Part shown: positions 1-36,914 of the stretch, piece by piece | Layout: each line of letters begins with the position of its first letter | How positions within the stretch are numbered: the stretch's first letter is position 1 | NCBI GenBank assembly: GCA_013298595.1 | Contig: JAAFIG010000026.1 | Location: 1-44,670, forward strand | Direction: 5' to 3' | Origin: Deinococcales bacterium | GTDB taxonomy: Bacteria > Deinococcota > Deinococci > Deinococcales > JAAFIG01 | DNA length: 44,670 bases | Notes under the pieces: generated by a model | Told to the model about the DNA's origin: nothing | The model's input: only the letters and a program-made list of their open reading frames with translations | Database searches by the model: none | Made by a program: the position numbers and the translations under genes

Positions 1-31
1 CAACGGGGGCATTCTCCTTCGAGCTAAGCAC

Positions 32-44
32 TACACTAACAATC
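32..44 (+). promoter_or_regulatory. -10 box of the first gene
   Basis: TACACT (32-37) lies 7 nt before the ATG at 45; no Shine-Dalgarno is seen, consistent with a leaderless mRNA. Confidence 0.5.
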
Positions 45-647
45 ATGTGGTTGGTTTATGTGTTTTTGTTTTTCTCGAGTTTAGCCTTTGCGGGCAATTC
101 AGCAGGTGATAACCCAGCTGCCATGCCAGATTTACCACCTATGGTTCCAGGCTCAAGTGTGTCTGAACAAAAAACGCCTTTAGACCCTGGAGTGCAACGC
201 CAAGGGATCCTTGAATTTGAATTTGACCCAGATGGTGGTGCATTCATAGCTCGAGTTTCGGATGCCAATGGTACTCAACCACTGCTGGCGGATGCACTCG
301 AGTTAGACGCAATTGATGATACTGGTAAAATGGTTAGTCTCAAAGCCGATAAGCTCGAGAAAAACGTTTTCAGAGCAACACTCAATTTAGCCGAAGGCGA
401 ACATAACTTAATTGCTCGAGTCAAACGTGGTGAGAAAGTTTTGGATGGACAATTTATGCTTGGTGTTGGTAAAGCAGTCACAGAAGGGCGTTTTGCGCTT
501 GTGCCACCGAATCCAGAAGTTGGGCGTTTAAGCTGGCTGATTGCCGCACTGATTGGTGTACCCTTGTTTTTAGGTTTGTTGATTGGTTTATTTGTTATTG
601 TGCAAAAAATCATCAATCCACAATCGGTTAATTCAACTGCCGTTTAA
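45..647 (+). CDS. secreted/membrane-anchored protein of unknown function
   Basis: I do not recognise this 200-residue protein. It starts with a short signal peptide (hydrophobic stretch WLVYVFLFFSSLAFA, cleavage likely after AFA), followed by a Pro-rich linker (about residues 20-50), a probable beta-sandwich region (about 55-145, ending near GQFMLGVG) and one C-terminal membrane helix (about 163-190, LSWLIAALIGVPLFLGLLIG). This predicts an extracytoplasmic domain held by a C-terminal anchor, with only a short cytoplasmic tail. The ATG at 45 lies 7 nt behind a TACACT -10 box and has no Shine-Dalgarno, so it is probably translated from a leaderless mRNA. Its last 20 nt overlap the convergent Nudix gene. 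A YtkA/CopC-like fold is possible but not supported by any motif I can point to. Confidence 0.7.
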   Translation: MWLVYVFLFFSSLAFAGNSAGDNPAAMPDLPPMVPGSSVSEQKTPLDPGVQRQGILEFEFDPDGGAFIARVSDANGTQPLLADALELDAIDDTGKMVSLKADKLEKNVFRATLNLAEGEHNLIARVKRGEKVLDGQFMLGVGKAVTEGRFALVPPNPEVGRLSWLIAALIGVPLFLGLLIGLFVIVQKIINPQSVNSTAV

Positions 648-1227
648 GCCATACAGCATGGGCATCTCGAGCGTGGGATTCCATTGCCGAGTGCCAAATC
701 GGAACTTCTTCAATATTCCAGTATTGCAAGCCTAAATCCTCATGCGAACGGGTCAGAATTCCACCAATCACTTCGCATAAATAAACTGTACTCACCAGTG
801 TATATAAGCCGTATTCTGCATTTGGAAACCGAGTGTAAACTTTAACCAACTCGAGAATTTGTATATCTAAACCACTTTCTTCTTTAGCTTCGCGGATTGC
901 GCCTTGCTCAGGTGATTCGCCCGCCTCGACAAGTCCACAAGGCATACACCATTTTTCATTATCCGTGCGTTTTAGCAATAATATCCTGCCACTTGAGTCA
1001 AAAATAGCTGCGTCTGAACCAAGAACAGGAGAAACTCCAAGTTTCCCTAAATCCTTTTTTAAATTAGCCCGAACTTTGGGTGCTGGTATCTCGAGGGTAT
1101 GCCCATAATACTCGGTTGTTAGCTCGAGCAACTGCTCGTAACGCTGACGATCATAAATATCTTTGGTGTAGTACAAACCGAGTTTGGCAATTGACTGAAG
1201 TTTCTCGAGGAGTGCAAAAATGTCCAT
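628..1227 (-). CDS. Nudix hydrolase, ADP-ribose pyrophosphatase-like
   Basis: A 199-residue Nudix hydrolase. The C-terminal half carries a complete Nudix box, G-x5-E-x7-REAKEESGL (starting GLVEAGESPEQG), which binds the divalent metal used to hydrolyse nucleoside-diphosphate-X substrates. The N-terminal helical part (MDIFALLEKLQSIAKLGL...YDRQRYEQLLELTTEYY) matches the extra N-terminal domain of the COG1051-type ADP-ribose pyrophosphatases. I place the start at the ATG at 1227, not the longer TTG-initiated frame from 1293: this fits the family N-terminus, and a TAAAAT -10 box sits 7 nt upstream, giving a leaderless start. The substrate (ADP-ribose versus another X-linked nucleoside diphosphate) cannot be read from the sequence. 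The gene is convergent with, and overlaps, the end of the upstream membrane-protein gene. Confidence 0.88.
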   Translation of the reverse strand: MDIFALLEKLQSIAKLGLYYTKDIYDRQRYEQLLELTTEYYGHTLEIPAPKVRANLKKDLGKLGVSPVLGSDAAIFDSSGRILLLKRTDNEKWCMPCGLVEAGESPEQGAIREAKEESGLDIQILELVKVYTRFPNAEYGLYTLVSTVYLCEVIGGILTRSHEDLGLQYWNIEEVPIWHSAMESHARDAHAVWLKRQLN

Positions 1228-1240
1228 GCGGGCAATTTTA
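1228..1240 (-). promoter_or_regulatory. -10 box of the Nudix gene
   Basis: TAAAAT on the minus strand (1235-1240), 7 nt before the ATG at 1227. It supports the shorter start over the TTG at 1293. Confidence 0.5.
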
Positions 1241-1331
1241 TCAATAAATAATAGCTCGGTAACTTGCTTACCATAAACTATAGCTACAGCCAATCCTGCT
1301 GTTAGATAAGTGTATTAGGTTATGAAAGCAA

Positions 1332-1856
1332 TTAAATTCCTAAACTTGTTTTGCTAAACAGTGGCGCACCAACAAAACCGGCAGCAGCAATATTTTCTTG
1401 TGCACCTTGTTCACGGTTGACCACGTACACAATACGTTCGACAGTTGCCCCTAGTTCTGTTAATAAATGGGCAGCTCGAATGGCTTGCCCTGCGGTTGTG
1501 AGGACATCTTCAATCAAGGCGACTTTGGCATTTTCGGGTAGCACACCTTCAATTAATTTGGCTGTGCCGTACTCTTTTGCGCCTTTACGAACAATCACAA
1601 ACGGTAAACCCGTCTCGAGGGCTACAGCTGTGGCGAGTGGCACAGCTCCTAGCTCTACGCCTGCTAAACAAGTCAGACCTTCGGGGAGTAAACCTGCTAA
1701 GCCAATGGCGATGTCACGCAGTAATTTTGGTTCGGTTGAGAACCGATATTTATCCATGTAGTACTTGCTGCGTTGTCCACTCGAGAGCAGAAAGTCTCCT
1801 TCTAGGTAGGCAGCTTTGACTAGGCGTTGTCCGACTTCTGATGCGTTAAATGGCAT
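1332..1856 (-). CDS. pyrE: orotate phosphoribosyltransferase
   Basis: A 174-residue orotate phosphoribosyltransferase, which converts orotate plus PRPP to OMP in de novo pyrimidine synthesis, in the cytoplasm. The PRPP-binding signature is present near the middle (VALIEDVLTTAGQAIRAA), preceded by the substrate-loop region FVIVRKGAKEYGTAKLIEG and the N-terminal FLLSSGQRSKYYMDKYRF typical of PyrE. Length is slightly short for the family but complete. The ATG at 1856 follows a TAGTAT box by 6 nt (leaderless start). The gene diverges from the cox operon across a short spacer that contains a 14-bp direct repeat overlapping this promoter. No other pyrimidine genes are adjacent. Confidence 0.95.
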   Translation of the reverse strand: MPFNASEVGQRLVKAAYLEGDFLLSSGQRSKYYMDKYRFSTEPKLLRDIAIGLAGLLPEGLTCLAGVELGAVPLATAVALETGLPFVIVRKGAKEYGTAKLIEGVLPENAKVALIEDVLTTAGQAIRAAHLLTELGATVERIVYVVNREQGAQENIAAAGFVGAPLFSKTSLGI

Positions 1857-1925
1857 GGCTACATACTACCGCGTATGGCAGGACTACATACTACCGCATC
1901 TCGAGCTTGTGCTACACTTAGACCC
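1855..1925. promoter_or_regulatory. divergent pyrE / coxG promoter region with 14-bp direct repeat
   Basis: The 14-mer ctacatactaccgc occurs at 1859-1872 and again at 1884-1897 (25-bp period). Read on the minus strand the first copy carries the TAGTAT -10 box of pyrE (1863-1868); the second copy offers the same box one period upstream. On the plus strand TACACT (1913-1918) is a candidate -10 for coxG, giving a leader of about 50 nt. The repeat may be a duplicated promoter or an operator. Confidence 0.5.
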
Positions 1926-1974
1926 GATTCAAACAATTTAATCAGAGCATTTTTGTTGCTCAAGGAGGCTTTCG

Positions 1975-2418
1975 TTGCAACTCGAGGGATTCAACATTAT
2001 TCATGCGACACCAGAGCAGGTTTTTGTTGCGCTACAAAGTCCAGATATGCTGGCGAAGTGTGTCCCAGGAGTCAAAAAACTCGAAGTTGAATCTGAAGGT
2101 GTGTTTAAAACTACGCTGGAAGTTTCGGTTGGACCTGTCAAAGGTTCTTTTTCGGGTAAGGTCAGTGTTTTAGATGCTGTGCTGAATACGTCATTAACCC
2201 TCAAAGTCGAAATGCGAGCACCTGTTGGCATTGCCAGTGCGATTGGGAAAATTATTCTCGAGCCTCAAGATGCTGCTACTAAAGTGCATTGGTCTGGCGA
2301 ACCACAATTGGGCGGCATGATTGCCAGTGTTGGTGCACGTTTAATTGGTGGTGTTGCTAAAGCCCAAGCTGATATTTTTTTTACCAAACTTGAACAGGAA
2401 TTAACCAGTAAGGCTTAG
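1975..2418 (+). CDS. coxG: CO dehydrogenase subunit G-like protein (SRPBCC fold)
   Basis: A 147-residue CoxG-family protein of the SRPBCC/START-like fold. Family hallmarks are the N-terminal LEGFNIIHATPEQVFVALQSPDMLAKCVPGV and the repeated GSFSGKVSV...EPQLGGMIASVGARLIGG segments. In Oligotropha-type systems CoxG is thought to anchor the enzyme to the membrane and, in recent mycobacterial work, to carry menaquinone to the CO/H2-oxidising complexes; here that is inferred from family only. It begins at a TTG at 1975 preceded by a strong AAGGAGG (1962-1968), which decides the start. It is the first gene of the coxG-S-L-M operon; the 107-bp gap to coxS contains an orphan GGAGG near 2451 with no start codon behind it. 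Confidence 0.88.
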   Translation: MQLEGFNIIHATPEQVFVALQSPDMLAKCVPGVKKLEVESEGVFKTTLEVSVGPVKGSFSGKVSVLDAVLNTSLTLKVEMRAPVGIASAIGKIILEPQDAATKVHWSGEPQLGGMIASVGARLIGGVAKAQADIFFTKLEQELTSKA

Positions 2419-2525
2419 TTTTTTATTTAATTGGAGGTGCAAATTCAAAATTTATTTTGCTCGAGATTGATTGATCCTAATAAGTGGCTAGAAACTAACA
2501 GCTAGAAGCTCAAAAGGAGATTCTT

Positions 2526-3023
2526 ATGGCAGACAAAGTTCCAATCACCCTGACTGTAAATGGTACCAAGCACTCTGTTCATGTTGAACCGCGCACACTT
2601 CTGGTTCAGTTTTTACGCGAGCATTTAAGTTTAACAGGCACCCATGTGGGTTGCGACACCAGTCAATGTGGTGCTTGTACAGTGCATCTGGATGGTATGG
2701 CAGTTAAGTCCTGCACCATGTTTGCTGTGCAAGCCGATGGCTCGAGTGTCACAACAATAGAAGGTATTGGTGAAATCGGGCATTTGCATCCATTGCAACA
2801 AGGTTTCTGGGAAATGCACGGTTTGCAGTGCGGTTTTTGTACACCAGGAATGATTATGAGTGCAGCTGATTTATTGCAGCACAACGCAAAGCCATCAGAA
2901 GCCGAAATTCGGCATGCACTTGAGGGTAATTTTTGTCGTTGCACGGGTTATCACAATATTGTCCGCGCAGTGCAACATGCCTCAGGTCAGATACAAAACC
3001 AAGCGCAAGCAGCGGATGATTAA
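2526..3023 (+). CDS. coxS: aerobic CO dehydrogenase-type small subunit, [2Fe-2S]
   Basis: A 165-residue iron-sulfur subunit of a molybdenum hydroxylase. The N-terminal half is a plant-type ferredoxin domain with [16 protein letters not shown] followed by a fourth Cys (KSCTM); the C-terminal half is the [2Fe-2S] helical domain with CGFCTPGM and [12 protein letters not shown]. All eight cluster cysteines are present. It would pass electrons from the molybdopterin site of CoxL to the FAD of CoxM. The start ATG follows AAAAGGAG. It lies between coxG and coxL; the coxS-coxL gap (151 bp) contains no gene I can support. The family also includes xanthine dehydrogenase and nicotine dehydrogenase small subunits; assignment to the CO dehydrogenase group rests on the neighbours. 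Confidence 0.93.
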
Positions 3024-3174
3024 ACGGGACGGTCTATCAATGCAACAAACTGTATTAATGAATCGTACTTAAACGCCCGTAGAATTCCAGCTAAGTTGCG
3101 TTCCTCGAGCATAGAAAATTGCAAAATAAATCGGCTCGAGTTTGCATTGTTGCGCGGTACAAAGAGAGGTTGTT

Positions 3175-5544
3175 ATGGCAGAAAAAATGTTTGGTAAAGC
3201 CCTAAAGCGAGTCGAAGACCCGCGCTTTATCACAGGTACAGGCAATTACACCGATGATATTGCGGTTCATGGCATGGTTCATGCCGCGATGGTACGAAGC
3301 CCGTATCCGCATGCAAAAATTAAAAGTATTGACTCGAGTGCAGCTTTAGCTTTACCTGGTGTAATTGCAATTTTGACAGGTAAAGATTTGGTTGGTGCTG
3401 GTATTAACCCAATTCCTACAGGTTGGTTGCTGCCAGACCTAAAAATTTCGGCACATCATGCGATTCAACCCGAAGAAGTCAACCATGTCGGTGATATTGT
3501 TGCAGCCATAATTGCCGAAACTCGAGCCATTGCCGAAGATGCAGTTGCCCTTGTAGATGTGGATTACGATGTGCTCGAGAGCGTGTCGCTCGGCAGTACT
3601 GCGTTGGCAGCAGGTGCAGTGCAAGTGCATCCTGAAGCACCTGGTAACTTAGCATTTGATTGGACAATTGGCGATGCCGCTGCTACCGATGCCGAATTTG
3701 CCAAAGCCGATAAAATTGTTAAACTCGAGCTTCGCAATCATCGGTTAGTGCCTAATGCCATCGAACCTCGAGCCAGTTTAGCTGAATATAAGCGAGCTGG
3801 TGACGAGTACACTTTACACACGACCAGTCAGAATCCGCACATTCATCGGGTGATGATTGGTGCTTTTGTCATGGGTATACCAGAACATAAACTGCGGATT
3901 GTCAGCCCAGATGTCGGTGGTGGATTTGGTAGCAAAATTTTTCAATATCCCGAAGAAGTGATTGTGTTGTTTGCAGCGAAGAAAGTGAATCGTCCTGTCA
4001 AATGGACGGCGCGTCGTTCAGAATCTTTTGTTTCTGATGCTCATGGGCGCGATCATGAAACTGTTGCTGAAGCCGCTGTGATGAACGATGGTACCTTACT
4101 GGCTTTACGAGTCAATACTATTGCTAATTTGGGTGCATATCTGACTACCTTTGCTCCTGCTGTGCCAACGTATTTATATGGAACGCTGTTAAACGGAACA
4201 TACAAATGGAAAGCTATTCATGCCCATGTACGAGGTGTTTACACGAATACAGTTGGTGTAGACGCGTACCGTGGTGCAGGACGACCAGAGGCGACGTATG
4301 TTGTCGAACGCATTGTCAGTACTGTTGCTCGAGAACTTGGTATGGATCCTGTTGATATTCGTCGTAAAAACTTTATTCAACCGTCTGAATTCCCATATCA
4401 AACACCTGTTGCTTTGCAATACGATAGCGGTAATTACGAACCTGCTATGGACATGGCACTCGAGAAACTTGGTTACAAAGCCTTGCGTGCCAAACAAGCC
4501 GAGATGCGAAAACAAGGCAAATATATTGGCATTGGTGTTTGTACGTACCTTGAGGCGTGCGGTTTAGCCCCGAGCGCATTGGTCGGTTCATTGGGTGCAC
4601 AAGCTGGTCAATGGGAGAGCGCGTTGGTGCGAGTCGCTGCCACAGGTGTTGTTGAAGTGCTGACAGGCAGCCACAGCCACGGGCAAGGTCACGAAACAGC
4701 CTTTGCCCAAGTCGTTGCCGATGAGTTACAAGTTCCAGTTGAACATGTTGTCTTGGTTCATGGCGACACTGCCCGATTACCGCATGGTTGGGGTAGTTAT
4801 GGCTCGAGAAGTGCACCTGTTGGTCTAAGTGCAATCACTATGGCATGTCGCAAAATTACGGATAAAGCCAAGAAAATCGCTGCTCATTTACTCGAGGCTT
4901 CAGTCGAAGATATGGAACATGTGGATGGCAAATACCAAGTCAAAGGTGTTCCTGAACGGAGCAAATCCTTTTTTGAAGTGGCTTTGATGGCACATCTTGC
5001 CCATAATTACCCAGCTGATCTCGAACCAGGTCTCGAGGCAACCCATTTCTACGATCCTAAAAACTTTGTCTACCCATTTGGTACGCACTTAGCTGTAGTC
5101 GAAGTGGATGCTGATACGGGTCGAACCAAGTTAATACGCTATGTTTGTGTAGACGACTGCGGACCAATTGTGAACCCACTGATTGTTGAAGGACAAGTTC
5201 ATGGGGGTGTCGCCCAAGGTATGGGACAAGCTTTGCTCGAGAACACAGTTTACGATGCCAGTGGACAACTTGTGAGCGGTTCGTACCTCGAGTACACCAT
5301 GCCTCGAGCTGATGATATGGTGCAACTCGAGATTGGGCATACAGTTACACCTAGTCCGCACAATCCACTTGGCTTAAAAGGCATTGGCGAAGCAGGTACG
5401 ATTGCTAGTACCGCTGCGGTTGCTAATGCAGTCATTGATGCCCTCGAGCCATTTGGGGTTAGGCACATGGATATGCCATTTACCTCAGAAAAAGTTTGGC
5501 AAGTTATTCACGCTTCACAATTAGCCCAAGCTGCCGACGATTAA
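3175..5544 (+). CDS. coxL: form II aerobic CO dehydrogenase-like large subunit (molybdopterin)
   Basis: A 789-residue molybdopterin-binding catalytic subunit of the xanthine oxidase family. It shows GGGFGSK (molybdopterin contacts), the active-site loop AYRGAGRPEA, and the C-terminal catalytic Glu in KGIGEAGTIAS. True form I CO dehydrogenases carry AYRCSFR with the copper-binding Cys; AYRGAGR is the form II signature, and the S-L-M gene order also fits form II. Carbon monoxide oxidation by form II enzymes is doubtful, so the substrate may be another aldehyde or heterocycle. I use the ATG at 3175 (MAEKMFGKALKRVED), preceded by AGAGAGG, not the upstream in-frame ATG at 3142. It is followed at once by a terminator-like hairpin. 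No coxD/E/F maturation genes are seen in this window. Confidence 0.92.
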   Translation: MAEKMFGKALKRVEDPRFITGTGNYTDDIAVHGMVHAAMVRSPYPHAKIKSIDSSAALALPGVIAILTGKDLVGAGINPIPTGWLLPDLKISAHHAIQPEEVNHVGDIVAAIIAETRAIAEDAVALVDVDYDVLESVSLGSTALAAGAVQVHPEAPGNLAFDWTIGDAAATDAEFAKADKIVKLELRNHRLVPNAIEPRASLAEYKRAGDEYTLHTTSQNPHIHRVMIGAFVMGIPEHKLRIVSPDVGGGFGSKIFQYPEEVIVLFAAKKVNRPVKWTARRSESFVSDAHGRDHETVAEAAVMNDGTLLALRVNTIANLGAYLTTFAPAVPTYLYGTLLNGTYKWKAIHAHVRGVYTNTVGVDAYRGAGRPEATYVVERIVSTVARELGMDPVDIRRKNFIQPSEFPYQTPVALQYDSGNYEPAMDMALEKLGYKALRAKQAEMRKQGKYIGIGVCTYLEACGLAPSALVGSLGAQAGQWESALVRVAATGVVEVLTGSHSHGQGHETAFAQVVADELQVPVEHVVLVHGDTARLPHGWGSYGSRSAPVGLSAITMACRKITDKAKKIAAHLLEASVEDMEHVDGKYQVKGVPERSKSFFEVALMAHLAHNYPADLEPGLEATHFYDPKNFVYPFGTHLAVVEVDADTGRTKLIRYVCVDDCGPIVNPLIVEGQVHGGVAQGMGQALLENTVYDASGQLVSGSYLEYTMPRADDMVQLEIGHTVTPSPHNPLGLKGIGEAGTIASTAAVANAVIDALEPFGVRHMDMPFTSEKVWQVIHASQLAQAADD

Positions 5545-5576
5545 CCGTAGTGGCAAGGTGTGCCTTGCCTTTTCTA
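5545..5576 (+). terminator. hairpin with T-run after coxL; also a member of the CCGTAG palindrome family
   Basis: Directly after the coxL stop, GGCAAGG (5552-5558) and CCTTGCC (5563-5569) form a 7-bp stem with a TGTG loop, followed by TTTTCT. This has the form of an intrinsic terminator and would reduce read-through into coxM. The leading CCGTAG ties it to similar palindromes at 5600-5629, 6434-6458 and 27959-27984. Confidence 0.6.
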
Positions 5577-5599
5577 GCAGATGGAACTTGTATTTTGTT

Positions 5600-5629
5600 A
5601 AAGCAGGCGACCACAAGGGTCGCCCCTAC
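5600..5629 (-). repeat. interspersed palindrome of the CCGTAG/GGCG family (inverted copy)
   Basis: GGCGACC (5606-5612) and GGTCGCC (5618-5624) form a hairpin, followed by the inverted end CCTACG. It is a reversed relative of the copies after coxL, coxM and livF and lies in the coxL-coxM spacer just upstream of the coxM ribosome-binding site. Confidence 0.55.
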
Positions 5630-5643
5630 GAAAAAGGGGATTC

Positions 5644-6432
5644 ATGTACACAGCCGAATTTGATTATAAGAAAGTCTCGAGTGTCGCTGATGCTTTGGCT
5701 GCTTTAAAGGCGCATCCTGATGCAAAATTATTAGCTGGTGGTCATAGTTTAATTCCAACCATGAAATTGCGTCTAGCTTCGCCGAGTGCCTTAATTGATG
5801 TCTCGAGTATTCCTGGTTTGAAGGGAATTCGTCTTGAAGGTGATGTGATTGTTATCGGTGCAATGACTACGCATCGGGATATTGAACACTCGAGTTTGCT
5901 TAAAGATAAGTGCCCGATTTTGCCTGAGCAAGCAGCCTTAATTGGAGATCCAATGGTTCGCAATAAAGGAACAATTGGTGGTTCATTGGCACATGCTGAC
6001 CCTGCTGCTGATTATCCTGCTTCGATGTTGGCGTTGGGTGCCAAAATGAAGATCGAGTCCAGCAGCGGTGCTCGAGTGGTTACAGCGGATGATTTCTTTG
6101 TTGGTATGTTCCAAACAGCGGTTGCTGAGGGTGAAATGCTGACTGAAATTCATATTCCAGCCAATACCAAAAGCAGTGCTTACGAGAAATTCGCTCATCC
6201 TGCTAGTCGTTATGCCATTGTTGGCGTGGCTGTGGTCAAACATGCCGATGGTACAACTCGAGCTGCTTTAACAGGGGCTGGTGCCAGTGCTGTGCGGCTG
6301 CCTAAGCTCGAGGCTGGTAGTATCAGTAGTCTGGTGAGTGCAGCGGATTTATTGTCGGATAATTTTGCCAGTGCCGAGTACCGTGCTCATTTAGTGGATG
6401 TGATGGCAAAGAAAGCCTTGGCTCGGGTCTAA
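5644..6432 (+). CDS. coxM: aerobic CO dehydrogenase-type medium subunit, FAD-binding
   Basis: A 262-residue FAD subunit of the molybdenum hydroxylase. FAD-binding motifs AGGHSLIP (about residues 31-38) and TIGGSLAHADPAADYPA (about 107-123) are intact; the C-terminal CO dehydrogenase flavoprotein domain follows. It accepts electrons from CoxS and passes them to the respiratory chain. The protein is somewhat shorter than typical CoxM (about 285 residues) at the C-terminus but shows no break. ATG at 5644 follows AAGGGGATTC. It is the last gene of the operon, closed by a palindrome and a strong bidirectional terminator shared with the convergent helicase gene. Confidence 0.92.
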   Translation: MYTAEFDYKKVSSVADALAALKAHPDAKLLAGGHSLIPTMKLRLASPSALIDVSSIPGLKGIRLEGDVIVIGAMTTHRDIEHSSLLKDKCPILPEQAALIGDPMVRNKGTIGGSLAHADPAADYPASMLALGAKMKIESSSGARVVTADDFFVGMFQTAVAEGEMLTEIHIPANTKSSAYEKFAHPASRYAIVGVAVVKHADGTTRAALTGAGASAVRLPKLEAGSISSLVSAADLLSDNFASAEYRAHLVDVMAKKALARV

Positions 6433-6433
6433 A

Positions 6434-6458: not shown

Positions 6459-6465
6459 TTGATAT

Positions 6466-6497: not shown

Positions 6498-6504
6498 CTA
6501 CGTT

Positions 6505-9970: not shown

Positions 9971-10010
9971 AATTCACAAATAAGTAATAATCGTGAATAT
10001 ATTCACATGA
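9971..10010. promoter_or_regulatory. conserved 40-bp element with CRP-like operator, copy 1
   Basis: A 40-bp stretch that matches 35041-35080 at 33 of 40 positions by hand alignment. It contains AATTCACAAA at the left and the perfect 14-bp palindrome GTGAATATATTCAC (9993-10006) at the right, i.e. GTGA-N6-TCAC, the core of CRP/FNR-superfamily sites. Its centre is about 64 bp upstream of the leaderless start of the HspR gene and about 71 bp from the divergent small gene. Confidence 0.6.
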
Positions 10011-10050
10011 CTAATCTACTCTGTATTGCAAGAAATTCCTCATCATCAGG

Positions 10051-10066
10051 TATACTGCGCTTTGTG
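10051..10066 (+). promoter_or_regulatory. promoter -10 and leaderless GTG start of the HspR gene
   Basis: TATACT (10051-10056) is followed after 7 nt by GTG (10064), in frame with the regulator. TTGCAA (10026-10031) is a possible -35 at an unusually long 19-bp spacing, the spacing typical of MerR-controlled promoters; this hints at autoregulation but no dyad is evident in the spacer. Confidence 0.55.
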
Positions 10067-10828
10067 ACAGATGCCAAAGATCGCCCAGTGTACGTGATAA
10101 GTGTCGCGGCTGAACTGGTGGATATGCACCCCCAAACCTTGCGTCTGTACGAACGCAAAGGTTTAATTCGCCCTGGACGCTCGAGTGGTAAAACCCGTTT
10201 GTATTCTGAACGAGATGTCGAATACTTACGAGAGATTCGCCGCTTAACCCAAGAACTTGGCGTGAACTTAGCGGGAGTCGAAGAGATCATGAAATTGCGC
10301 TTCGAGTTAGACGAAGTGCAAACCAAATTTGAAGGCGAAATTTACCGACTCGAAGGGGCAATCCGTGCCGAATTTGACGCACAAAATGCTGCCCCATCAG
10401 ACCCCAACGACCCTAAAGCCAAAGGTGTTTTTGTCATCAGTGTGGCTGCAGAACTGGTGGACATGCACCCACAAACTTTGCGCTTGTACGAACGCAAAAA
10501 CTTGATTCGCCCAAATCGCTCGAGTGGCAAAACCCGTCTTTATTCCGAACGAGATATAGACCATCTGCGCGATATCAAACGCTTAACCCAAGAACTTGGC
10601 GTGAACTTGGCGGGTGTCGAAGAAGTTATGCGTTTACGCTTTGAACTTGACGATGCCCAAGACCGACTCGAGCGAGAAGCCAGCCGTCTACAAAGCGAAA
10701 TTGCTGACCGTATCGAATTGATGAAAGGGCATTCTCTGCCCAGTAGCGAACCAAAAGCCAAAACAAAAACTGCGAGTAAACCCGCAGCCAAAGCAAAACC
10801 AAAAACCAAGAAAAAATCAGCCAGCTAA
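10064..10828 (+). CDS. tandem-domain HspR/MerR-family regulator with basic C-terminal tail
   Basis: A 254-residue regulator containing two nearly identical MerR-type DNA-binding domains (about residues 8-80 and 123-195), each beginning V(Y/F)[18 protein letters not shown] and continuing YERK(G/N)LIRP and [14 protein letters not shown]. This is the signature of HspR, the repressor of dnaK/clpB heat-shock genes in Actinobacteria and Deinococcus. HspR is normally a single ~130-residue domain protein; here two copies are joined by an acidic linker, giving a covalent pseudo-dimer. The tail (last ~35 residues, [21 protein letters not shown]) is Lys/Ala-rich like H1-type histone tails and may add non-specific DNA binding. 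I choose the GTG at 10064 over the ATG at 10007, which lies inside the conserved operator. The 3' end overlaps the convergent HD gene by 12 nt. Confidence 0.85.
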
Positions 10829-14659: not shown

Positions 14660-14804
14660 TTGTAACGTGATGTCATTCTTCTGGACTGCCCGCACCACCC
14701 GAACCCCTTGCGGGGTCTGATTCTTTACGTGGGTGCGGTTTCTCGAGAAGTGTGGTGTTTCATGCCTCGAGCTGTCTAAAAGTCCTAAATTCTTCGAGGT
14801 GATT
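14660..14804 (+). promoter_or_regulatory. structured mRNA leader of thrS
   Basis: About 140 nt ahead of thrS hold three nested or adjacent stems: CCGCACC (14690-14696) with GGTGCGG (14732-14738); inside it ACCCC (14703-14707) with GGGGT (14712-14716) around TTGC; and CCTCGA (14765-14770) with TCGAGG (14794-14799), the last covering the Shine-Dalgarno GAGG. I see no T-box consensus. Translational control of thrS, as in E. coli autoregulation by ThrRS, is the analogy. A TAAACT at 14653-14658 is a possible -10. Confidence 0.45.
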
Positions 14805-16763
14805 ATGCAAGTGTTTCTGCCAGATGGAAAAGCCTTAGATTTACAAGTCGGAGCCACAGCCTTAGATGCTGCCAAACTGATTGGTCCTAAACTCGCCGAG
14901 CAAGCCATTGGAGCCAGAGCCAATGGAAAACTCTGGGATATTTTCACGCCACTGCCCGATGGTGCCAAACTCGAGATTTTAACAACTCGTAAACCAGCCG
15001 AAGCCATTGATTTAATGCGGCATACATTAGCCCATGTCATGGCACAAGCCATTCTTGAAGTATACGGAACGAAAAACTTTGCTCGAGACACCATCAAAAT
15101 GGGTGTCGGACCAGTGATTGAAAATGGGTTTTACTACGATTTTGATTTACCAGAACCCTTAAAACTCGAGGAATTAGAAATTCTCGAGAATAAAATGCGC
15201 GAAATCATTGCTCGAGATTTGCCATTGTCACGCTACGAAGTGACCAGAGATCAAGCCCTTGCCGAGTTTGCGGGTCGGGATCGGTATAAAACCGAGTTGA
15301 TTGAAGGCTTACCGGATAACGAACCGATGACGTTCTACCGCCAAGGTTCAGAAGCAGATTTTACAGATCTTTGCCGTGGTCCACATATTCCTCGCACTGG
15401 CTTGATTCCGCCACATTTTAAATTAACGGCAACTTCGGGTGCCTACTGGCGAGGCTCAGAAAAAAATCCGATGCTGCAACGCATTTATGGCGTGGCATTC
15501 GCCACAGCCGCTGAACTCGAGAAACATTTGTGGCAACAAGAAGAAGCCAAAAAACGTGACCACCGTAAATTGGGCAAAGAGATGGATTTATTTGCCTTTT
15601 CCGACGAGGTAGGGCAAGGTTTGCCTTTGTGGTTGCCAAAAGGTGCATTTATTCGTAAAAAGCTCGAAGATTACATGTACGAAAAAGAACAAGAATACGG
15701 CTATGACTATGTAATTAGCCCGCACATCACAAAAGAAAACTTGTATCATCGGTCTGGGCATTTGCCATATTATGCCGATGGAATGTATGCCCCCATCGAA
15801 ATTGAAGGCGAAAACTATTACCTCAAACCGATGAACTGCCCGCATCACCACATGATTTTTGCGGCTCGCCCAAAATCGTACCGTGACCTGCCAGCACGTT
15901 ACGCCGAAGCTGGCACAGTCTACCGCTTTGAAATGTCAGGTGCTTTAACAGGTCTAGCTCGAGTTCGTGGTTTTACCCAAAACGATGCCCATATTTACTG
16001 CTCGAAATCACAAGTTAAAGACGAATTTATCAACGTTATTAAACTTTTTGAAGAAGTCTACAAAGACTTTGGCATTACTGATTATTGGTTTAGGTTGTCG
16101 TTGCCAGATTTTGAAAATAACCCCGAGAAATTTGGCGAACCAGGACCTCAATGGGATGAAAGCATCGCCGCAATTCGGGCTGCGCTCGAGGAAACAGGTG
16201 CCAGTTACGTCGAAGGCATTGGCGAAGCCACATTCTACGGACCTAAACTTGATGTGCAACTAAGAACCGTGGTTGGTAAAGAAGAAAGCATAGCCACCAA
16301 CCAACTCGATTTTATTGTACCAAGCCGTTTCGATCTCGAGTTCACCAATGCTAACGGTGAAAAAGAAACCCCAGTTGTTATTCACCGTGCCATCATGGGC
16401 AGTTTTGACCGCTTCTTTGCATTTTATCTTGAGCATACTGCTGGTAATTTCCCTGTTTGGCTTGCACCCGAACAAGCCCGAATTATCACCATTTCAGATC
16501 GTCACCTCGAGTATGCTGCCACGCTCGAGGCAAAAATGAAAAAAGCCAAGTTACGTGTGACCATAGACTCGAGTAGCGAACGAATGCAAGCCAAAATCCG
16601 CGATGCAGAAATTGCTAAAGTGCCATTTATTCTGGTTGTAGGCGATAAAGAAATTCTCGAGAATGCTGTGAGCTTACGAGAACACGGCAAGGGTGATCGC
16701 GGTAAAGTCTCGAGCGATGCTGTGATTAGCGAAATGCTCGAGCGAGTGGCTGACCGCAAGTAA
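14805..16763 (+). CDS. thrS: threonyl-tRNA synthetase
   Basis: A 652-residue class II synthetase charging tRNA-Thr. It has the full bacterial layout: TGS domain (residues 1-60, MQVFLPDGKALDLQVG), editing domain with HTLAHVMAQAI, the catalytic core with motif 2, zinc ligands Cys in MNCPHHHMIF and His in VIHRAIMGSFDRF, and the C-terminal anticodon-binding domain (from about residue 545, PVWLAPEQARII). I start at the ATG at 14805 behind GAGGTGATT; the longer frame from 14733 reads through the leader hairpins and adds no conserved sequence. A second gene for a membrane-anchored protein follows after 39 bp with its own Shine-Dalgarno. Confidence 0.97.
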   Translation: MQVFLPDGKALDLQVGATALDAAKLIGPKLAEQAIGARANGKLWDIFTPLPDGAKLEILTTRKPAEAIDLMRHTLAHVMAQAILEVYGTKNFARDTIKMGVGPVIENGFYYDFDLPEPLKLEELEILENKMREIIARDLPLSRYEVTRDQALAEFAGRDRYKTELIEGLPDNEPMTFYRQGSEADFTDLCRGPHIPRTGLIPPHFKLTATSGAYWRGSEKNPMLQRIYGVAFATAAELEKHLWQQEEAKKRDHRKLGKEMDLFAFSDEVGQGLPLWLPKGAFIRKKLEDYMYEKEQEYGYDYVISPHITKENLYHRSGHLPYYADGMYAPIEIEGENYYLKPMNCPHHHMIFAARPKSYRDLPARYAEAGTVYRFEMSGALTGLARVRGFTQNDAHIYCSKSQVKDEFINVIKLFEEVYKDFGITDYWFRLSLPDFENNPEKFGEPGPQWDESIAAIRAALEETGASYVEGIGEATFYGPKLDVQLRTVVGKEESIATNQLDFIVPSRFDLEFTNANGEKETPVVIHRAIMGSFDRFFAFYLEHTAGNFPVWLAPEQARIITISDRHLEYAATLEAKMKKAKLRVTIDSSSERMQAKIRDAEIAKVPFILVVGDKEILENAVSLREHGKGDRGKVSSDAVISEMLERVADRK

Positions 16764-29034: not shown

Positions 29035-29676
29035 CTAACTAACTTCAGGATCATTGATTGCTTCGCACTGTAAGCGCAAGTAATCAACTGTCCAAATAGC
29101 ATCTTTGAGTTCTTCAATATCCTCATCACTTAGATTTTGATTTTTATTATTTTGCATTTTGTGAAGTCGAATCTCTAGCCGGTTAAGCTCTTTTAGTATT
29201 TTAAATCTTAAAAAAGCTCCTCGTGTGTCAATGAAAAGTGCGATGCAAATTGGCTTAACCAAATATAAAATAGTAATAATTCTTGCAATAATTTCTAATT
29301 GTATTCGAGAAGTTGACTTCTTGGTTTTTTTGAAAATTTGGTCATTTTGTATTCTTGAAATAGAGTCACGTTCGGACTTCAAAGACTTTTTAATTGTCCA
29401 AAGTGTACTACTGAAAAGGAAATAACCACCAAGTTTTTTTGATAACTCTCTTCTCTGAAAATATACTGAGCCAAAAACTCGAAAAGCCCATATCAACTTA
29501 AAAATTTTTCCGGGAACATTTTCTAATTCGGCTAAATACTCTTCCCCATACCTCTGACGACTTCCTACAGGTAAAGCCCGAACAGAAAATCGAATTAGTT
29601 TCTCAGCTAACCAAGGGGCAACCTCGCCTACCTCGTTTGTAAGTAACCCAAGTAAGAAAGCGTTAAATTCAGACAT
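29035..29676 (-). CDS. PadR-coupled membrane protein with shared N-terminal prefix
   Basis: A 213-residue protein whose first ~75 residues (PWLAEKLIRFSVRALPVGSR, QRYGEEYLAELENVPGKIFK, LIWAFRVFGSVYFQRRE) parallel the prefix of the 28025-28879 product. After that it differs: a Lys/Ser-rich middle, one or two membrane helices (about 128-150, LEIIARIITILYLVKPICIALFI) and a charged, probably coiled-coil tail (LRFKILKELNRLEIRLHKMQ). It overlaps the PadR gene by 8 nt, so the two are translated together. The frame contains no CTCGAG, unlike most of the window, and is visibly A+T-rich (many Lys/Asn/Ile codons), suggesting separate ancestry. Confidence 0.75.
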   Translation of the reverse strand: MSEFNAFLLGLLTNEVGEVAPWLAEKLIRFSVRALPVGSRQRYGEEYLAELENVPGKIFKLIWAFRVFGSVYFQRRELSKKLGGYFLFSSTLWTIKKSLKSERDSISRIQNDQIFKKTKKSTSRIQLEIIARIITILYLVKPICIALFIDTRGAFLRFKILKELNRLEIRLHKMQNNKNQNLSDEDIEELKDAIWTVDYLRLQCEAINDPEVS

Positions 29677-29965
29677 GAATAACCCCTAGTTTTGACTGGA
29701 AAAGTTCTCTTTGTGCTTTCAATGCTTCGCGTCGTCCTAAATCCGTAATTGTGTAGTACCTTCTGGCGCGTCGTCCTTCCTTGACAGGGTCGATATCTTC
29801 CCAGTCACTCGAGAGCCATTTATTGGTCTCGAGTCGCATCAGAATAGGGTACAACGTGCCAGCTTGTACACCTGTGGCTTTGGTTATCTCGAGACCATAT
29901 TGTGGCTCATCTAGGTTCTCGAGGAAGATATTTAATACCTTGAGGGTTTCAAAAGTCATACGCAT
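29669..29965 (-). CDS. PadR-family transcriptional regulator
   Basis: A 98-residue PadR winged-helix protein. The diagnostic segments are QYGLEITKATGVQAGTLYPI (recognition helix), LMRLETNKWLSSDWE, and EGRRARRYYTITDLGRREAL (wing). It belongs to the short PadR subfamily lacking a long C-terminal dimer domain. It starts at an ATG (29965) 6 nt behind a TAGACT box with a well-placed TTGACT -35, and overlaps the next gene by 8 nt. PadR proteins usually repress their own operon; imperfect direct repeats in this promoter are candidate operators. It probably controls the two membrane-protein genes downstream. Confidence 0.92.
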   Translation of the reverse strand: MRMTFETLKVLNIFLENLDEPQYGLEITKATGVQAGTLYPILMRLETNKWLSSDWEDIDPVKEGRRARRYYTITDLGRREALKAQRELFQSKLGVIHV

Positions 29966-29971
29966 ATTGAA

Positions 29972-30011: not shown

Positions 30012-30061
30012 CTCGAAATTTTAATTCGTCATTTTACTGAAGGATAAACTGGCTGTAGATC

Positions 30062-30179: not shown

Positions 30180-32218
<2,039 letters not shown>

Positions 32219-32301
32219 CTAAACCTTTGTAAGTTTTCGGTGTAGGCTGGTAGACTAGAATGGTTTTCTGTAACCGCTTGCAGTCTGCTTGAAGGGGGAC
32301 T

Positions 32302-34968
32302 ATGCCTGTACTCTCAATTGGTGATCGTCGCTTAGGAGCGATTCTTTTACAACTCGGATACGTGTCCGACACAGATTTACAACGTGCCCTCGAGAAACAC
32401 TCGGAATTAGGTGGCAGACTTGCCGACATTCTGATTGATAATGGCATTGTTAATGAACGCCGCATTGCCAGAGCCATCGAGGATGAACTGGGTTATCCTT
32501 TGGTTAATTTGGTTTTGCTTGCACCAGAACCCGAAGTCACAGCCTTAATAGATGGCAACAGAGCACAAGAACTTGGTGCTTTTCCGTTTAAGCTCGAGAA
32601 TGGTAAGTTGCGGGTTGCTTTTGTAGACCCATTAAACACAATGGCAGTCGAAGCTATCGAAGATGCCACGGATTTAGTGGTAGACCCACACCAAGCCCTC
32701 AGAGATCAAATTAAATGGGCTATTGCCACATACTACCCAGAACTTGGACTCGAGATTCCTGATTTGGGCAAAATTTCCAGCCCAGAAGAAGAACGTCTTG
32801 GTAATCGCTTAGTTAAAAAAGGTTTAATTAACGAAGTCCAACTCGAGGAAGCACTTGCCCTCCAAGAACCCAATGGTGAACCACTTGGGCGAATTTTGGT
32901 GCGTTTAGGCTATTTACCAGAAACCGATTTATATCGTGTTCTTGCCGAACAAGCCAGTATTCAATTTGTGGATTCAGGGGCAAACTTGAGTATCCCCGAA
33001 GAAATTTCTGGTTTGTTATTGCGTTCCGATGCTGTACGTTACCAAGCTGTGCCAATTGCTGATGATGGCACTATGATTACCGTTGTTTGCCCAGATCCTA
33101 AACGCCAAGGTGAAATCCAAGCTTTGTTTCGTAAACAAGTACAAATTTCGATGATGGCTCCTGCTGAAGTGGATGCGCTGATAGACCGAATTTACGTTGG
33201 CAAAGGTCGCTTGGGCGAAGAACTTGTGCAACAAGGCAAAGTGAATCGTGAACAATTGGTCGAAGCCTTAAAGGTACAACGTAAAGAAGGTAAATCTAAA
33301 CCACTTGGTGAAGTGTTGGTCGAACTTGGTTATGTCAGTGGTGACGAAGTCGAACGTGCTTTAGCAAAACAAAAAACAGGTGGCGGTAGACTCGAGGACA
33401 CACTGGTTCAATCGGGGAAGCTCTCACCAGAAATGTTGGCAAAATCCTTAGCAGTTCAGCTGGGTTACGAGTTTGTTAATCCTGGTCAAGATGCACCTGA
33501 CCCTGGTGTGATTACCCTAATTCCCGAAAACCAAGCCCGCCGATACACATTATTCCCCTATAAAGTTCAAGGTAATTCTTTACAAGTTTTAATGAAAGAC
33601 CCGCGCAATGTTTTTGCCATAGATGACCTTAAACTCATGACTGGACGCGATATTATTCCAGTTGTTGCTATCGAAGGCGATATCCAAAAACTGATAGACC
33701 GAGCTTATGGCGGATCAGGTATTAGTGCTGACGAATTAAATAAAGAACTTGCAGCACTCGGTAATAGTTCGAGCAAAGCTGAAGAAGTTGACTCGAGTTT
33801 AGATGATAATGCTGTGGTGCGTACTGTAGACCATGTGATTCGTGAAGCAATCTTGGCTGAAGCATCTGATATTCACATTGAACCTACGCCCGAATTGGTT
33901 CGTGTTCGGTTTCGGGTTGACGGTTCATTAAGAGAAATCACAACTTTGCCTAAAGCCTCGGCAAATAGCATCGCAGCTCGTATCAAAATTATGGGTGGAT
34001 TAGATATTGCAGAGCGGCGGCTTCCTCAAGATGGTCGTGTGACTTTTAAATCTAAAAATATTAACTGCGATTTGCGTTTATCAACCTTGCCTGTGAAGTA
34101 TGGCGAAAAGATTGTTATGCGTATTTTGCAGAAAGCTACGAACATCCCCGAAATCGAAGATTTGGGTTTCTCTGATTATAATTTGCAACGCTATAAAGAT
34201 TTAATCGAAGAACCTTACGGTATTTTCTTAATCACAGGTCCAACTGGTTCAGGTAAGTCTTATACAACTTTTAGTAGTTTAAAACGCATCGCTCGACCCG
34301 ATGTCAATGTTTCAACAATTGAAGACCCTATCGAATACGAAATTCCTGGTCTCAATCAATCGCAGGTCAATAATGCCGCTGGTATGACTTTTGCTCGAGC
34401 GTTGCGTTCATTTTTGCGTCAAGATCCAGACATTATTATGGTTGGTGAGATTCGTGATAGTGAAACCGCTAAAATCGCAGTTGAAGCAGCACTGACAGGT
34501 CACTTGGTCGTAGGAACATTACACACCAATGACGCAGCAGGAGCGATCACTCGTCTCGAGGAAATGGGTGTTGAGCTTTTTAATATCTCTGCATCGTTAA
34601 TTGGTGTTTTAGCACAACGCTTGGTGCGTAAAGTTTGTAAAGATTGTAAGCAAGAATTACCAGCCGACCCTGAAGTTTTGCGCCGCTTAGGTTTGCATGA
34701 AGACCAAGTTTCTGGTCGTACCATTGTCAAAGGAATGGGTTGTGGTAAGTGTAATGATACAGGGTATAAAGGTCGTATGGCAGTGCATGAATTACTGGTG
34801 ATTGATGACCATGTTCGTAAAGCCATTATTGAGCACAAAACATCCACCGAAGTTCGCCAAATTGCTCGAGAAAAAGCTGGTTTGCGTACCCTGATGGAAG
34901 ATGGTCTTGAGAAGGCGTTGCAGGGTAAAACGACCCTCGAAGAAATTGCCAGCGCTATTTCCGAGTAG
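32302..34968 (+). CDS. pilF: type IV pilus assembly/DNA-uptake ATPase PilF (PilB family)
   Basis: An 888-residue secretion ATPase of the GspE/PilB family that powers pilus extension and, in Thermus, DNA uptake. Three consecutive MshEN/GSPII domains occupy about residues 1-145, 160-290 and 300-440 (repeats such as LGAILLQLGYVSDTDLQRAL, LGRILVRLGYLPETDLYRVL, LGEVLVELGYVSGDEVERAL); these bind c-di-GMP in relatives. The catalytic core has Walker A GPTGSGKS (about 646), Walker B IIMVGEIRD (about 711) and a tetracysteine zinc site (CKDCKQ about 778, CGKCND about 813). This triple layout and length match PilF of Thermus (889). ATG follows GAAGGGGGA. It is monocistronic, with a terminator at 34985. 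Confidence 0.95.
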   Translation: MPVLSIGDRRLGAILLQLGYVSDTDLQRALEKHSELGGRLADILIDNGIVNERRIARAIEDELGYPLVNLVLLAPEPEVTALIDGNRAQELGAFPFKLENGKLRVAFVDPLNTMAVEAIEDATDLVVDPHQALRDQIKWAIATYYPELGLEIPDLGKISSPEEERLGNRLVKKGLINEVQLEEALALQEPNGEPLGRILVRLGYLPETDLYRVLAEQASIQFVDSGANLSIPEEISGLLLRSDAVRYQAVPIADDGTMITVVCPDPKRQGEIQALFRKQVQISMMAPAEVDALIDRIYVGKGRLGEELVQQGKVNREQLVEALKVQRKEGKSKPLGEVLVELGYVSGDEVERALAKQKTGGGRLEDTLVQSGKLSPEMLAKSLAVQLGYEFVNPGQDAPDPGVITLIPENQARRYTLFPYKVQGNSLQVLMKDPRNVFAIDDLKLMTGRDIIPVVAIEGDIQKLIDRAYGGSGISADELNKELAALGNSSSKAEEVDSSLDDNAVVRTVDHVIREAILAEASDIHIEPTPELVRVRFRVDGSLREITTLPKASANSIAARIKIMGGLDIAERRLPQDGRVTFKSKNINCDLRLSTLPVKYGEKIVMRILQKATNIPEIEDLGFSDYNLQRYKDLIEEPYGIFLITGPTGSGKSYTTFSSLKRIARPDVNVSTIEDPIEYEIPGLNQSQVNNAAGMTFARALRSFLRQDPDIIMVGEIRDSETAKIAVEAALTGHLVVGTLHTNDAAGAITRLEEMGVELFNISASLIGVLAQRLVRKVCKDCKQELPADPEVLRRLGLHEDQVSGRTIVKGMGCGKCNDTGYKGRMAVHELLVIDDHVRKAIIEHKTSTEVRQIAREKAGLRTLMEDGLEKALQGKTTLEEIASAISE

Positions 34969-34984
34969 AATTATATTTTTGTGT

Positions 34985-35016
34985 AATCGCCGAAATTGCT
35001 TCGGCGATTTTATTTT
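34985..35016 (+). terminator. intrinsic terminator of pilF
   Basis: AATCGCCGAA (34985-34994) pairs with TTCGGCGATT (35000-35009) around ATTGC, followed by TTATTTT. It lies 17 nt past the pilF stop and immediately before the CRP-like element of the next gene. Confidence 0.85.
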
Positions 35017-35040
35017 AAATATGTGTATTCTGGAATATAA

Positions 35041-35080
35041 AATTCACAAAATAGCAATAATCGTGATTTATTTCACATGA
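35041..35080 (+). promoter_or_regulatory. conserved 40-bp element with CRP-like operator, copy 2
   Basis: Matches 9971-10010 at 33 of 40 positions by hand alignment, including AATTCACAAA, AATAATCGTGA and TTTCACATGA. The core is GTGA (35063-35066)-N6-TCAC (35073-35076). Its centre is about 44 bp upstream of the leaderless start of the M20 peptidase, 20 bp (about two helical turns) closer than in copy 1. Confidence 0.6.
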
Positions 35081-35100
35081 TTCAAGCTCCTGTAACTTGG

Positions 35101-35116
35101 TATGCTGACCATCATG
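35101..35116 (+). promoter_or_regulatory. -10 box and leaderless start of the M20 peptidase gene
   Basis: TATGCT (35101-35106), 7 nt, then ATG (35114). The in-frame ATG at 35102 lies inside the -10 box itself and so cannot be the start of this transcript. Confidence 0.6.
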
Positions 35117-36460
35117 AACTTTGAAAAAGCGAAACAAGAATTGCTCGAGTGGCTTGCCATTCCCAGCATCAGTACACTCTCCGAACGTAACACAGATACT
35201 CGCCTTGCTGCCGAATACCTGCATCAAAAACTTACTAGCCTCGGTTTTAGCTCAAGTATTCTCGAGACCGCTGGTCATCCTGTTGTTTTTGCTGAACATA
35301 GCAAAGCAGGGGAGAGCACCCCAACTGTTCTACTGTACGGGCATTATGATGTCCAACCCACCGACCCTGATGACGAATGGATAACACAACCATTTTCCCC
35401 TGCTATCCGAGATGCTGCCATTTATGCTCGCGGCAGTACCGATGATAAAGGACAAGTCTGGGCACATGTGGCGGCACTCGAGCATCACTTAATAACCAAT
35501 GGCACATTACCTGTCAATGTAAAAATCCTGATCGAAGGCGAAGAAGAAATAGGCAGCCCAAACCTGAAACCTTTTGTGCTCGAGCAAGCTAAAAAACTTG
35601 CCTGTGATGTGGTCGTTATTTCTGATGGTAGTATGTTTGCTCCTAGTGTACCAACCCTCACCACAGGTTTACGTGGACTGTGCTATCTCGAGGTACTTGT
35701 TCAAGGGGCAAAACAAGATTTACATAGTGGTGGATATGGCGGCGCAGTTGCTAACCCAATCCAAGCCCTTGCCCAAATCATTCAAAGCCTGCGAAATGGC
35801 AATGGCGAAATTTTGATTCCAGGTATTTACAAAGATGTACGTGCTGTTTCGGCAGTCGAACTTGAAGGTTGGAAGAACTTACCATTTACCGAAACAGCCC
35901 TGATGCAATCAGTTGGTGTCACAGCCCTGCCTGGTGAACCTGGTTATAGTGTCCTCGAGCGGCTCTGGGCACGCCCAACACTCGAGATTAATGGCATCTG
36001 GGGAGGGTTCCAAGGCGAAGGACAAAAAACCGTGTTACCTGCCAAAGCAGGAGCAAAAATTAGTTTACGTCTCGTGCCAGACCAACAACCAGACGAAATC
36101 TTTACCCTCGTTAAAAACCATATCGAAAGCCTCGAGTTACCAGGCGTAACTGTACAAGTCAAAAAACTACACACAGGTAACCCTGCCCTTGTTGATGCCA
36201 CCAGCCCAGCTGCTCAAGCTGCCATAGCAGCCTTAGCTCGAGCTTACCCAAATACCAAACCATCTTTTGTACGTGGTGGAGGTACGATTCCAGTGGTATC
36301 AGTTTTTAGCGAAGTGCTCAATGCACCAGTGTTACTTGTGGATTATGGTTTACCAGACGACGGAGCACATGGACCAAACGAACGCTTTACCCTCGAGTGT
36401 TTTGAAAAAGGTATTGAAACCAGTATTTACTTGTACGAGGAATTAGCTAAACTGAAATAG
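35114..36460 (+). CDS. M20 family metallopeptidase (dipeptidase)
   Basis: A 448-residue di-zinc peptidase of the M20 family, related to carnosinase-type dipeptidases and succinyl-diaminopimelate desuccinylase. Metal ligands are visible: His and Asp in YGHYDVQPTDPDDEW, Asp in ARGSTDDKGQVWAH, the catalytic Glu pair in EGEEEIGSPNL, Asp in VVISDGSMF, and a C-terminal His in DDGAHGPNERF. The lid domain lies between. It probably releases amino acids from small peptides in the cytoplasm. The start at 35114 is chosen from the -10 box. A CRP-like element upstream suggests control by carbon or energy status. A hairpin with a T-run follows at 36499. Confidence 0.93.
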   Translation: MNFEKAKQELLEWLAIPSISTLSERNTDTRLAAEYLHQKLTSLGFSSSILETAGHPVVFAEHSKAGESTPTVLLYGHYDVQPTDPDDEWITQPFSPAIRDAAIYARGSTDDKGQVWAHVAALEHHLITNGTLPVNVKILIEGEEEIGSPNLKPFVLEQAKKLACDVVVISDGSMFAPSVPTLTTGLRGLCYLEVLVQGAKQDLHSGGYGGAVANPIQALAQIIQSLRNGNGEILIPGIYKDVRAVSAVELEGWKNLPFTETALMQSVGVTALPGEPGYSVLERLWARPTLEINGIWGGFQGEGQKTVLPAKAGAKISLRLVPDQQPDEIFTLVKNHIESLELPGVTVQVKKLHTGNPALVDATSPAAQAAIAALARAYPNTKPSFVRGGGTIPVVSVFSEVLNAPVLLVDYGLPDDGAHGPNERFTLECFEKGIETSIYLYEELAKLK

Positions 36461-36498
36461 TAGATTTTAGTTGATTGATCTCGAGTTTGACACGTTAC

Positions 36499-36532
36499 AA
36501 AGAACCAGCTTTTTAAATAGGTTGGTTCTTTT
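36499..36532 (+). terminator. terminator after the M20 peptidase gene
   Basis: AAAGAACCA (36499-36507) pairs with TGGTTCTTT (36523-36531), followed by TT then GCTT. 15-nt loop. Confidence 0.6.
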
Positions 36533-36663
36533 GCTTATTAGTGCAGTGTTGGGTAAGCGTTTTTCAAAAGCCATTCGTAAACCAACGCCTTCATGTAATA
36601 AGCCTGTCAGTAGAGTAAATTGCCAAAATCGGCTTAGTAACTTATATTACATTTCACAATCCT

Positions 36664-36692
36664 TGTATTAGGGTTGTCACAACCCTAATACA
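36664..36692. repeat. 29-bp near-perfect palindrome
   Basis: TGTATTAGGGTTGT (36664-36677), C, ACAACCCTAATACA (36679-36692): 14-bp arms with a single central base. No T-run follows, so it is more like an operator or a mobile palindrome than a terminator. It sits between the two halves of the 37-bp direct repeat. Confidence 0.6.
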
Positions 36693-36859
36693 TAGCCTTA
36701 GCGCAGAGTAAATTTTGAAAATCGGGTTAGTGTTTCACAAATATCTCGAGATTCCATCTCTAGACCCAATAAAGCATTTGGGTCACGCAAAGGTCTAAGG
36801 TCACCATCTTCCACTGATGGGTCCATACTGAACTCGTACCGACCCAAGAGATTAATAGC

Positions 36860-36903
36860 AAATAATGGATAGACTTTGCTGAAACAGAGTCTATCCATTA
36901 TTT
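36860..36903 (-). terminator. terminator of the giant gene
   Basis: Perfect 16-bp arms (36860-36875 and 36888-36903; core AATAATGGATAGACT) around a 12-nt loop, 11 nt past the stop of the minus-strand giant gene. It is A+T-rich at the stem base, so it can act on either strand. Confidence 0.75.
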
Positions 36904-36914
36904 ACTACATCTCG

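Follow-up and report, generated by a model that had tools for sequence, protein, structure and literature searches.

CTCGAG in the window and in the genome

The window analysed here (the whole stretch of 44,670 nucleotides, contig 19 of assembly G000, which has 4.58 Mb in 68 contigs and is 94% complete) is saturated with the hexamer CTCGAG over most of its length. The features referred to in this section are:

1..36914, no strand, CTCGAG-saturated stretch whose 221 copies run from 74 to 36745, in all kinds of genes and in spacers
10007-10828, plus strand, 273-aa protein in which the MerR-type helix-turn-helix is matched twice, an unusual duplication
14733..16763, plus strand, threonyl-tRNA synthetase gene (Pfam) with 17 CTCGAG
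29035..29676, minus strand, 213-aa ORF of GC 35%, with 0 CTCGAG (next copy at 29809) and no Pfam match
36915..44567, minus strand, 2550-aa ORF with PQQ/BamB-like beta-propeller and carboxypeptidase-regulatory-like repeats

The first-pass annotation had estimated about 220 copies in 36.9 kb against about one per 5 kb expected from composition, and both figures hold: exact counting gives 221 copies at 1..36914 (n=224 in the whole window, with 3 at 36915..44670), and a zero-order model predicts one per ~5.2 kb (85.5 in 442 kb). The excess is not confined to the window, nor is the genome-wide count near expectation, as G000 contains 27,159 copies (5.9/kb, ~one per 170 bases), and in a 435-kb sample (GC of sampled sequence 44.9%) the ratio of observed copies to composition expectation (O/E) is ~31. 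GAGCTC, which is CTCGAG reversed and uses the same codons in opposite order, has 15 copies in the whole genome. The maximal-order Markov test on the window (224 observed, 178 expected) makes the excess look too small, since the 5-mers within CTCGAG are themselves raised by it.

The threonyl-tRNA synthetase is 94% and 84% identical to those of two uncultured Deinococcales (L143, JAAFJQ010000097, and L135, JANXTZ010000069), and 67-69% identical to those of Calidithermus and Meiothermus; 73% of the CTCGAG sites in its gene are identical in L143, and 52% in L135 and L249. By these identities G000 belongs to an uncultured member of Deinococcales. The MerR-type protein may be what the first-pass annotation called HspR. 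The window's two GAGCTC (38249 and 40174) both lie in the 2550-aa ORF, which has only 3 CTCGAG (41919, 42269 and 44254; 0.39/kb) and is probably a recently acquired surface protein; the 213-aa ORF is possibly imported. Other CTCGAG-poor stretches of the genome include a polysaccharide cluster (L022; RmlD-like, glycosyltransferase) and a GmrSD/HEPN/methyltransferase defence patch (L023). These stretches look like imports, and CTCGAG density may mark the residence time of DNA.

The motif comprises six bases, and the bases outside it are near background frequency in G000, except that a C.G flank is disfavoured. One-base variants were said to be far rarer, which is right for CTCGAA and TTCGAG when counted against CTCGAG itself, but relative to composition these are not depleted (1.55x). 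The one-offs made by transversion are depleted (0.14-0.69 of composition expectation), and TTCGAG and CTTGAG are the commonest one-offs. The median O/E of 6-bp palindromes is 0.29 (G000, 435-kb sample), with 21 of the 64 below 0.1 in G000 (loci L007-L026 and the window) and 33 of 64 in G005; CGATCG is among the depleted ones in the G000 sample (8 copies, O/E 0.10). GGCC has 13 copies in 442 kb of G000 (1,128 expected) and none in the window. Palindrome avoidance is widespread in G000 although the methyltransferase genes found were few.

Coding constraint, spacing and conservation of the sites

Copies were described as occurring in genes of every kind, in all frames and in spacers, and the counts bear this out, with 1319, 539 and 416 coding copies in frames 0, 1 and 2 and nearly equal densities in coding (5.95/kb) and non-coding DNA (5.66/kb). 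CTC-GAG accounts for 70% of 1,881 Leu-Glu pairs, and the word is present at 64% and 38% of the positions where the protein permits a frame-1 and a frame-2 reading, respectively. Leu-Glu pairs are found at 2.35x expectation and Glu-Leu pairs at 0.95x, so that the former are 2.5 times commoner in G000. Every one of the seven CTCGAG-rich genomes of families f1 (that of G000, with four genomes including it) and f2 has a Leu-Glu/Glu-Leu ratio within 2.1-3.0, as compared to 0.89 in G004 and 0.83 in G110, both of which have no CTCGAG excess, and 0.98 in other phyla (68 loci). Since the Leu-Glu excess is tied to CTCGAG-rich genomes, the pressure extends to the amino-acid sequence. That the word reflects codon usage, composition or a fault of assembly might be suspected because the Leu-Glu frame holds 58% of coding copies, but we give this reading practically no credence: shuffling synonymous codons within genes leaves only a tenth of the coding copies (236 +/- 17 against 2,274 seen), spacers and all frames show the excess, GAGCTC is nearly absent despite its identical codons, and independent genomes agree. 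The shuffle and the dipeptide comparisons rule out codon usage or composition as the cause.

Neighbouring sites interact only at short range. Permuting, gene by gene, the assignment of CTCGAG to Leu-Glu pairs (3,941 pairs in 482 genes of the four f1 genomes) placed CTCGAG-using pairs at 0.35 of expectation for start distances of 6-11 bp (z -5.3) and at 0.46 for 12-17 bp (z -6.4); from 18 to 300 bp the values are 0.87-1.05, i.e. use is independent. For all CTCGAG sites, g(d) lies between 0.27 and 0.51 over 6-17 bp, recovers at 18-21 bp (0.74 in the 18-20 bp bin) and then stays at ~0.8-1.2. At a distance of 6 bp, avoidance of the GAGCTC made by tandem copies is a sufficient explanation. In whole genomes, random placement predicts more pairs starting 9-17 bp apart than are counted in G000, G005, G006, G007, G002 and G003 (0.36-0.60 of prediction) and in 27 Thermus-like genomes summed (0.57); the exclusion measured in this way is weak or absent in G001 and G096 (near 1) and in G008 (1.35), and genomes that do not have the CTCGAG habit give 1.5-3 on tiny numbers. 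With a local baseline, close pairs in the pooled non-f1 Deinococcota set are at 0.58. Direct-repeat slippage was rejected as the source of the gap (other repeated codon pairs at short distance are at 0.98), and so were hairpins (GC-rich palindromes in unrelated bacteria pool at 1.08). A structure of DNA or RNA specific to CTCGAG, on which only the other palindromes bear, may underlie the gap. We read the gap as a putative footprint of ~18 bp, with steric exclusion as its candidate cause, an indirect reading of the spacing. No trend of CTCGAG density was seen along genes or at predicted starts, and this independence of position in genes argues against a regulatory role.

In 14.7 kb aligned between G000 and its genus mate G005 (74.5% identity), 69% of CTCGAG sites are identical in both, as compared to 21% of composition-matched control hexamers. 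If conservation decays exponentially, CTCGAG is by our estimate lost roughly 4 times more slowly than the controls. Because this slowing is only ~4x against a 31-fold equilibrium excess, gains of CTCGAG must be accelerated as well. A scaled strength of ~ln(31) = 3.4 per site, whether exerted by selection or by directional drive, would suffice, an estimate that assumes equilibrium, whereas protection from mutation by itself would not give a 31-fold excess. A bound protein that merely shields CTCGAG from mutation, with no selection, agrees with the slower loss, but we consider it very improbable: bases beside conserved sites have conservation of 0.72, 0.71 and 0.75 (at 1-3, 4-6 and 7-12 bp), which is not above background even within the putative footprint. 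Shielding was thus rejected on the unprotected flanks and the only ~4x slower loss.

Distribution in Deinococcota and comparison with known systems

We surveyed 111 Deinococcota genomes plus sampled sequence, among which we could assign none to Deinococcus itself. CTCGAG has O/E values of 31 in G000 and 20-26 in the other f1 genomes, 10.6, 31.6 and 28.5 in three f2 members, 5-11 in Meiothermus and Calidithermus loci, 10.6 in G008 (probably Marinithermus hydrothermalis) and up to 11 in family f5 (presumably Trueperaceae); values near 1 were observed in G004, G105 and G110. The word leads in much of Deinococcota, and a few genomes have lost it. CTCGAG behaves as highly iterated palindromes in general do: a single palindrome exceeds expectation by a wide margin across the genome and in its relatives, and neither codon nor amino-acid usage accounts for it.

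In genus g13 (27 genomes), which we take to be Thermus, CCTCGAGG makes up most CTCGAG copies (e.g. 1,678 of 1,814 in G048). This octamer is an iterated word in its own right, in a genus used in the laboratory, and TCGA is almost absent there outside it. In the Thermus-like G044 (L227 and L228), the values are 0.08 for TCGA outside the word, 0.25 for CTCGAG with other flanks and 19.4 for CCTCGAGG. The C.G flank is avoided in f1 (0.01-0.44), the opposite of Thermus, and such lineage-specific flank preference suggests a trans-acting reader with drifting specificity. A mirror image of Thermus is also seen in G007, G002, G072, G073 and G099, where CTCGAG is common and CCTCGAGG almost absent (47 of 27,118 copies in G007, and 3 of 2,317 in G073), perhaps reflecting a restriction system or a competing octamer reader. 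A scan of viral contigs for dense CTCGAG gave mostly GC-rich contigs among the matches listed. One piece of an IMG/VR contig (L369, 9722 bp, GC 0.64) has 57 CTCGAG (O/E ~17) and no GAGCTC; it could derive from a phage of a CTCGAG-rich host, or from another lineage with the same habit. A literature search that covered few subscription papers turned up no description of iterated CTCGAG or CCTCGAGG in Deinococcota.

The DUS of Neisseria and the USS of Haemophilus are non-palindromic words present about once per kb. CTCGAG resembles them in being short, in having built up over whole genomes of naturally competent bacteria and in being missing from recent imports, and differs from them in being palindromic and in showing no interaction between sites beyond 18 bp, which is an indirect argument against an uptake-sequence role. 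The likeness to HIP1 noted in the first-pass annotation is supported, and the effect is stronger than was claimed and spread over the phylum. As with HIP1 (GCGATCGC) and the alternate HIPs of cyanobacteria, in the passages of Elhai 2015 (PMC4390886) that describe them, one palindrome is massively over-represented in coding and non-coding DNA, the habit is clade-wide with sporadic losses and derivative words, and most other palindromes are avoided. CTCGAG is denser (~5,900 per Mb, as compared to 300-2,700 per Mb for HIP1), Leu-Glu is doubled, no methyltransferase common to its carriers was found, and it has an 18-bp exclusion zone, a feature that these passages do not report for HIP1. The top word is CTCGAG rather than GCGATCGC or a derivative, and the nearest relatives of the host are Deinococcales MAGs, Calidithermus and Meiothermus rather than cyanobacteria; CTCGAG is thus HIP1-like in behaviour and not HIP1 by membership. 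In Helicobacter, which has a CCGG restriction-modification system, CCGG is over-represented with ratios that peak at ~1.4-1.5 (PMC4687349). CCGG is likewise a restriction-type palindrome over-represented with no accepted explanation, though the ratio for CTCGAG is ~31.

Candidate mechanisms and significance

The data point to selection or drive acting per site, and not to kilobase-range repair, uptake or a spacing signal. Our preferred reading, to which we give a probability of about 0.45, is that CTCGAG is a highly iterated palindrome kept site by site and read by a protein that binds it stably, has a footprint of ~18 bp and brings an additive benefit. The force maintaining the word would act on each copy separately. 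The reading protein would be symmetric, bind dsDNA sequence-specifically, remain on its site and cover ~18 bp; two copies closer than this could not both be occupied, and only one would be favoured. Each occupied copy would give a small additive advantage, by coating or organising the chromosome or by marking DNA as self, and selection, perhaps aided by biased repair at bound sites, would drive tolerated positions to CTCGAG. Among the three causes offered in the first-pass annotation (a CTCGAG methyltransferase, mismatch-repair bias and a chromosome-organising protein), the last fits best, judging from the spacing. In a bolder form, which appears unlikely to us at a probability of about one in four, much of Deinococcota would carry an ancient, methylation-independent, sequence-specific chromosome-coating protein that recognises CTCGAG (CCTCGAGG in Thermus); its sites, as many as ~27,000 or one per 170 bp, would be selected strongly enough to reshape codons and proteome, as a sequence-encoded bacterial chromatin.

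Methylation is a rival that we also hold to be unlikely: one or more methyltransferases would modify CTCGAG, TCGA or CCTCGAGG, and sites would accumulate through methyl-directed repair or because methylation is beneficial, a scheme already put forward for HIP1. Palindromes are typical methyltransferase targets, and TaqI-type TCGA enzymes are known from Thermus (TaqI is treated in PMC5587805). According to the passages of PMC4390886 on this point, every cyanobacterium with an iterated palindrome has a fitting enzyme. We searched the f1 and f2 genomes for methyltransferase domains (PF00145, PF01555, PF07669, PF02384 and PF02086). What comes nearest to sharing is a C5 methyltransferase (L004) that G000, G005 and G003 have in common at 59-74% identity; its best solved relative is M.HhaI. 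Clustering of the PF00145, PF01555, PF07669 and PF02384 proteins, however, gave no orthologue (C5, N4/N6, Eco57I-type or N6) common to the four f1 genomes, D12 (PF02086) matches, which were left unclustered, are missing from the CTCGAG-rich G001, G002 (58% complete), G008 and G096, and PF00145 had no match in the Thermus control. An 18-bp exclusion is not obviously expected of an enzyme that binds transiently, and methyl-directed repair predicts density effects over ~1 kb, none of which is seen beyond 18 bp. A conserved methyltransferase was set aside as the driver, as the clustered families hold none shared across f1, and a CTCGAG methyltransferase as the cause finds no backing in the gene content of these families. 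The contrast with HIP1 cyanobacteria looks real as far as these families go, though the enzymes found may have a fitting specificity and a methyltransferase of another family may be present. In another locus (L057, G000 C11), the gene of an Eco57I/PglX-like methyltransferase (514 aa) adjoins that of a 308-aa protein with no family match, likely an uncharacterised restriction-modification pair.

Somewhat more doubtful still is directional drive with no benefit, in which heteroduplexes are repaired or converted with a bias (mismatch repair, gene conversion) or DNA is taken up with one, so that the word rises like the uptake sequences of Neisseria and Haemophilus. The lineages concerned are naturally competent. 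Drive would account for the equal bias in coding and non-coding DNA, for the amino-acid changes and for imported genes that have no CTCGAG; selection and drive are not told apart by these data. Uptake, however, acts per fragment, so that extra sites within 1 kb should count less, which is not seen beyond 18 bp, and VSP-type T:G repair, which would deplete TTCGAG and CTTGAG, was rejected because both are the commonest one-offs. NucS/EndoMS was also rejected as a driver, as its presence does not track CTCGAG. Mismatch-repair bias of the HIP1 type, the remaining cause offered earlier, is disfavoured, its kilobase-range strand signal disagreeing with the spacing and VSP-type repair with the one-off spectrum.

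HIP1 has been unexplained for decades, and an independent, denser iterated palindrome allows its explanations to be tested. The spacing suggests that single-site occupancy at a scale of ~18 bp matters, and not a kilobase-range signal. As Thermus is a genetic model with an 8-bp form of the word, capture and deletion of the protein concerned would be feasible there. CTCGAG also separates native from imported genes, and it distorts codon- and dipeptide-based inferences in Deinococcota, where a force at the level of DNA can change protein sequence across a genome.
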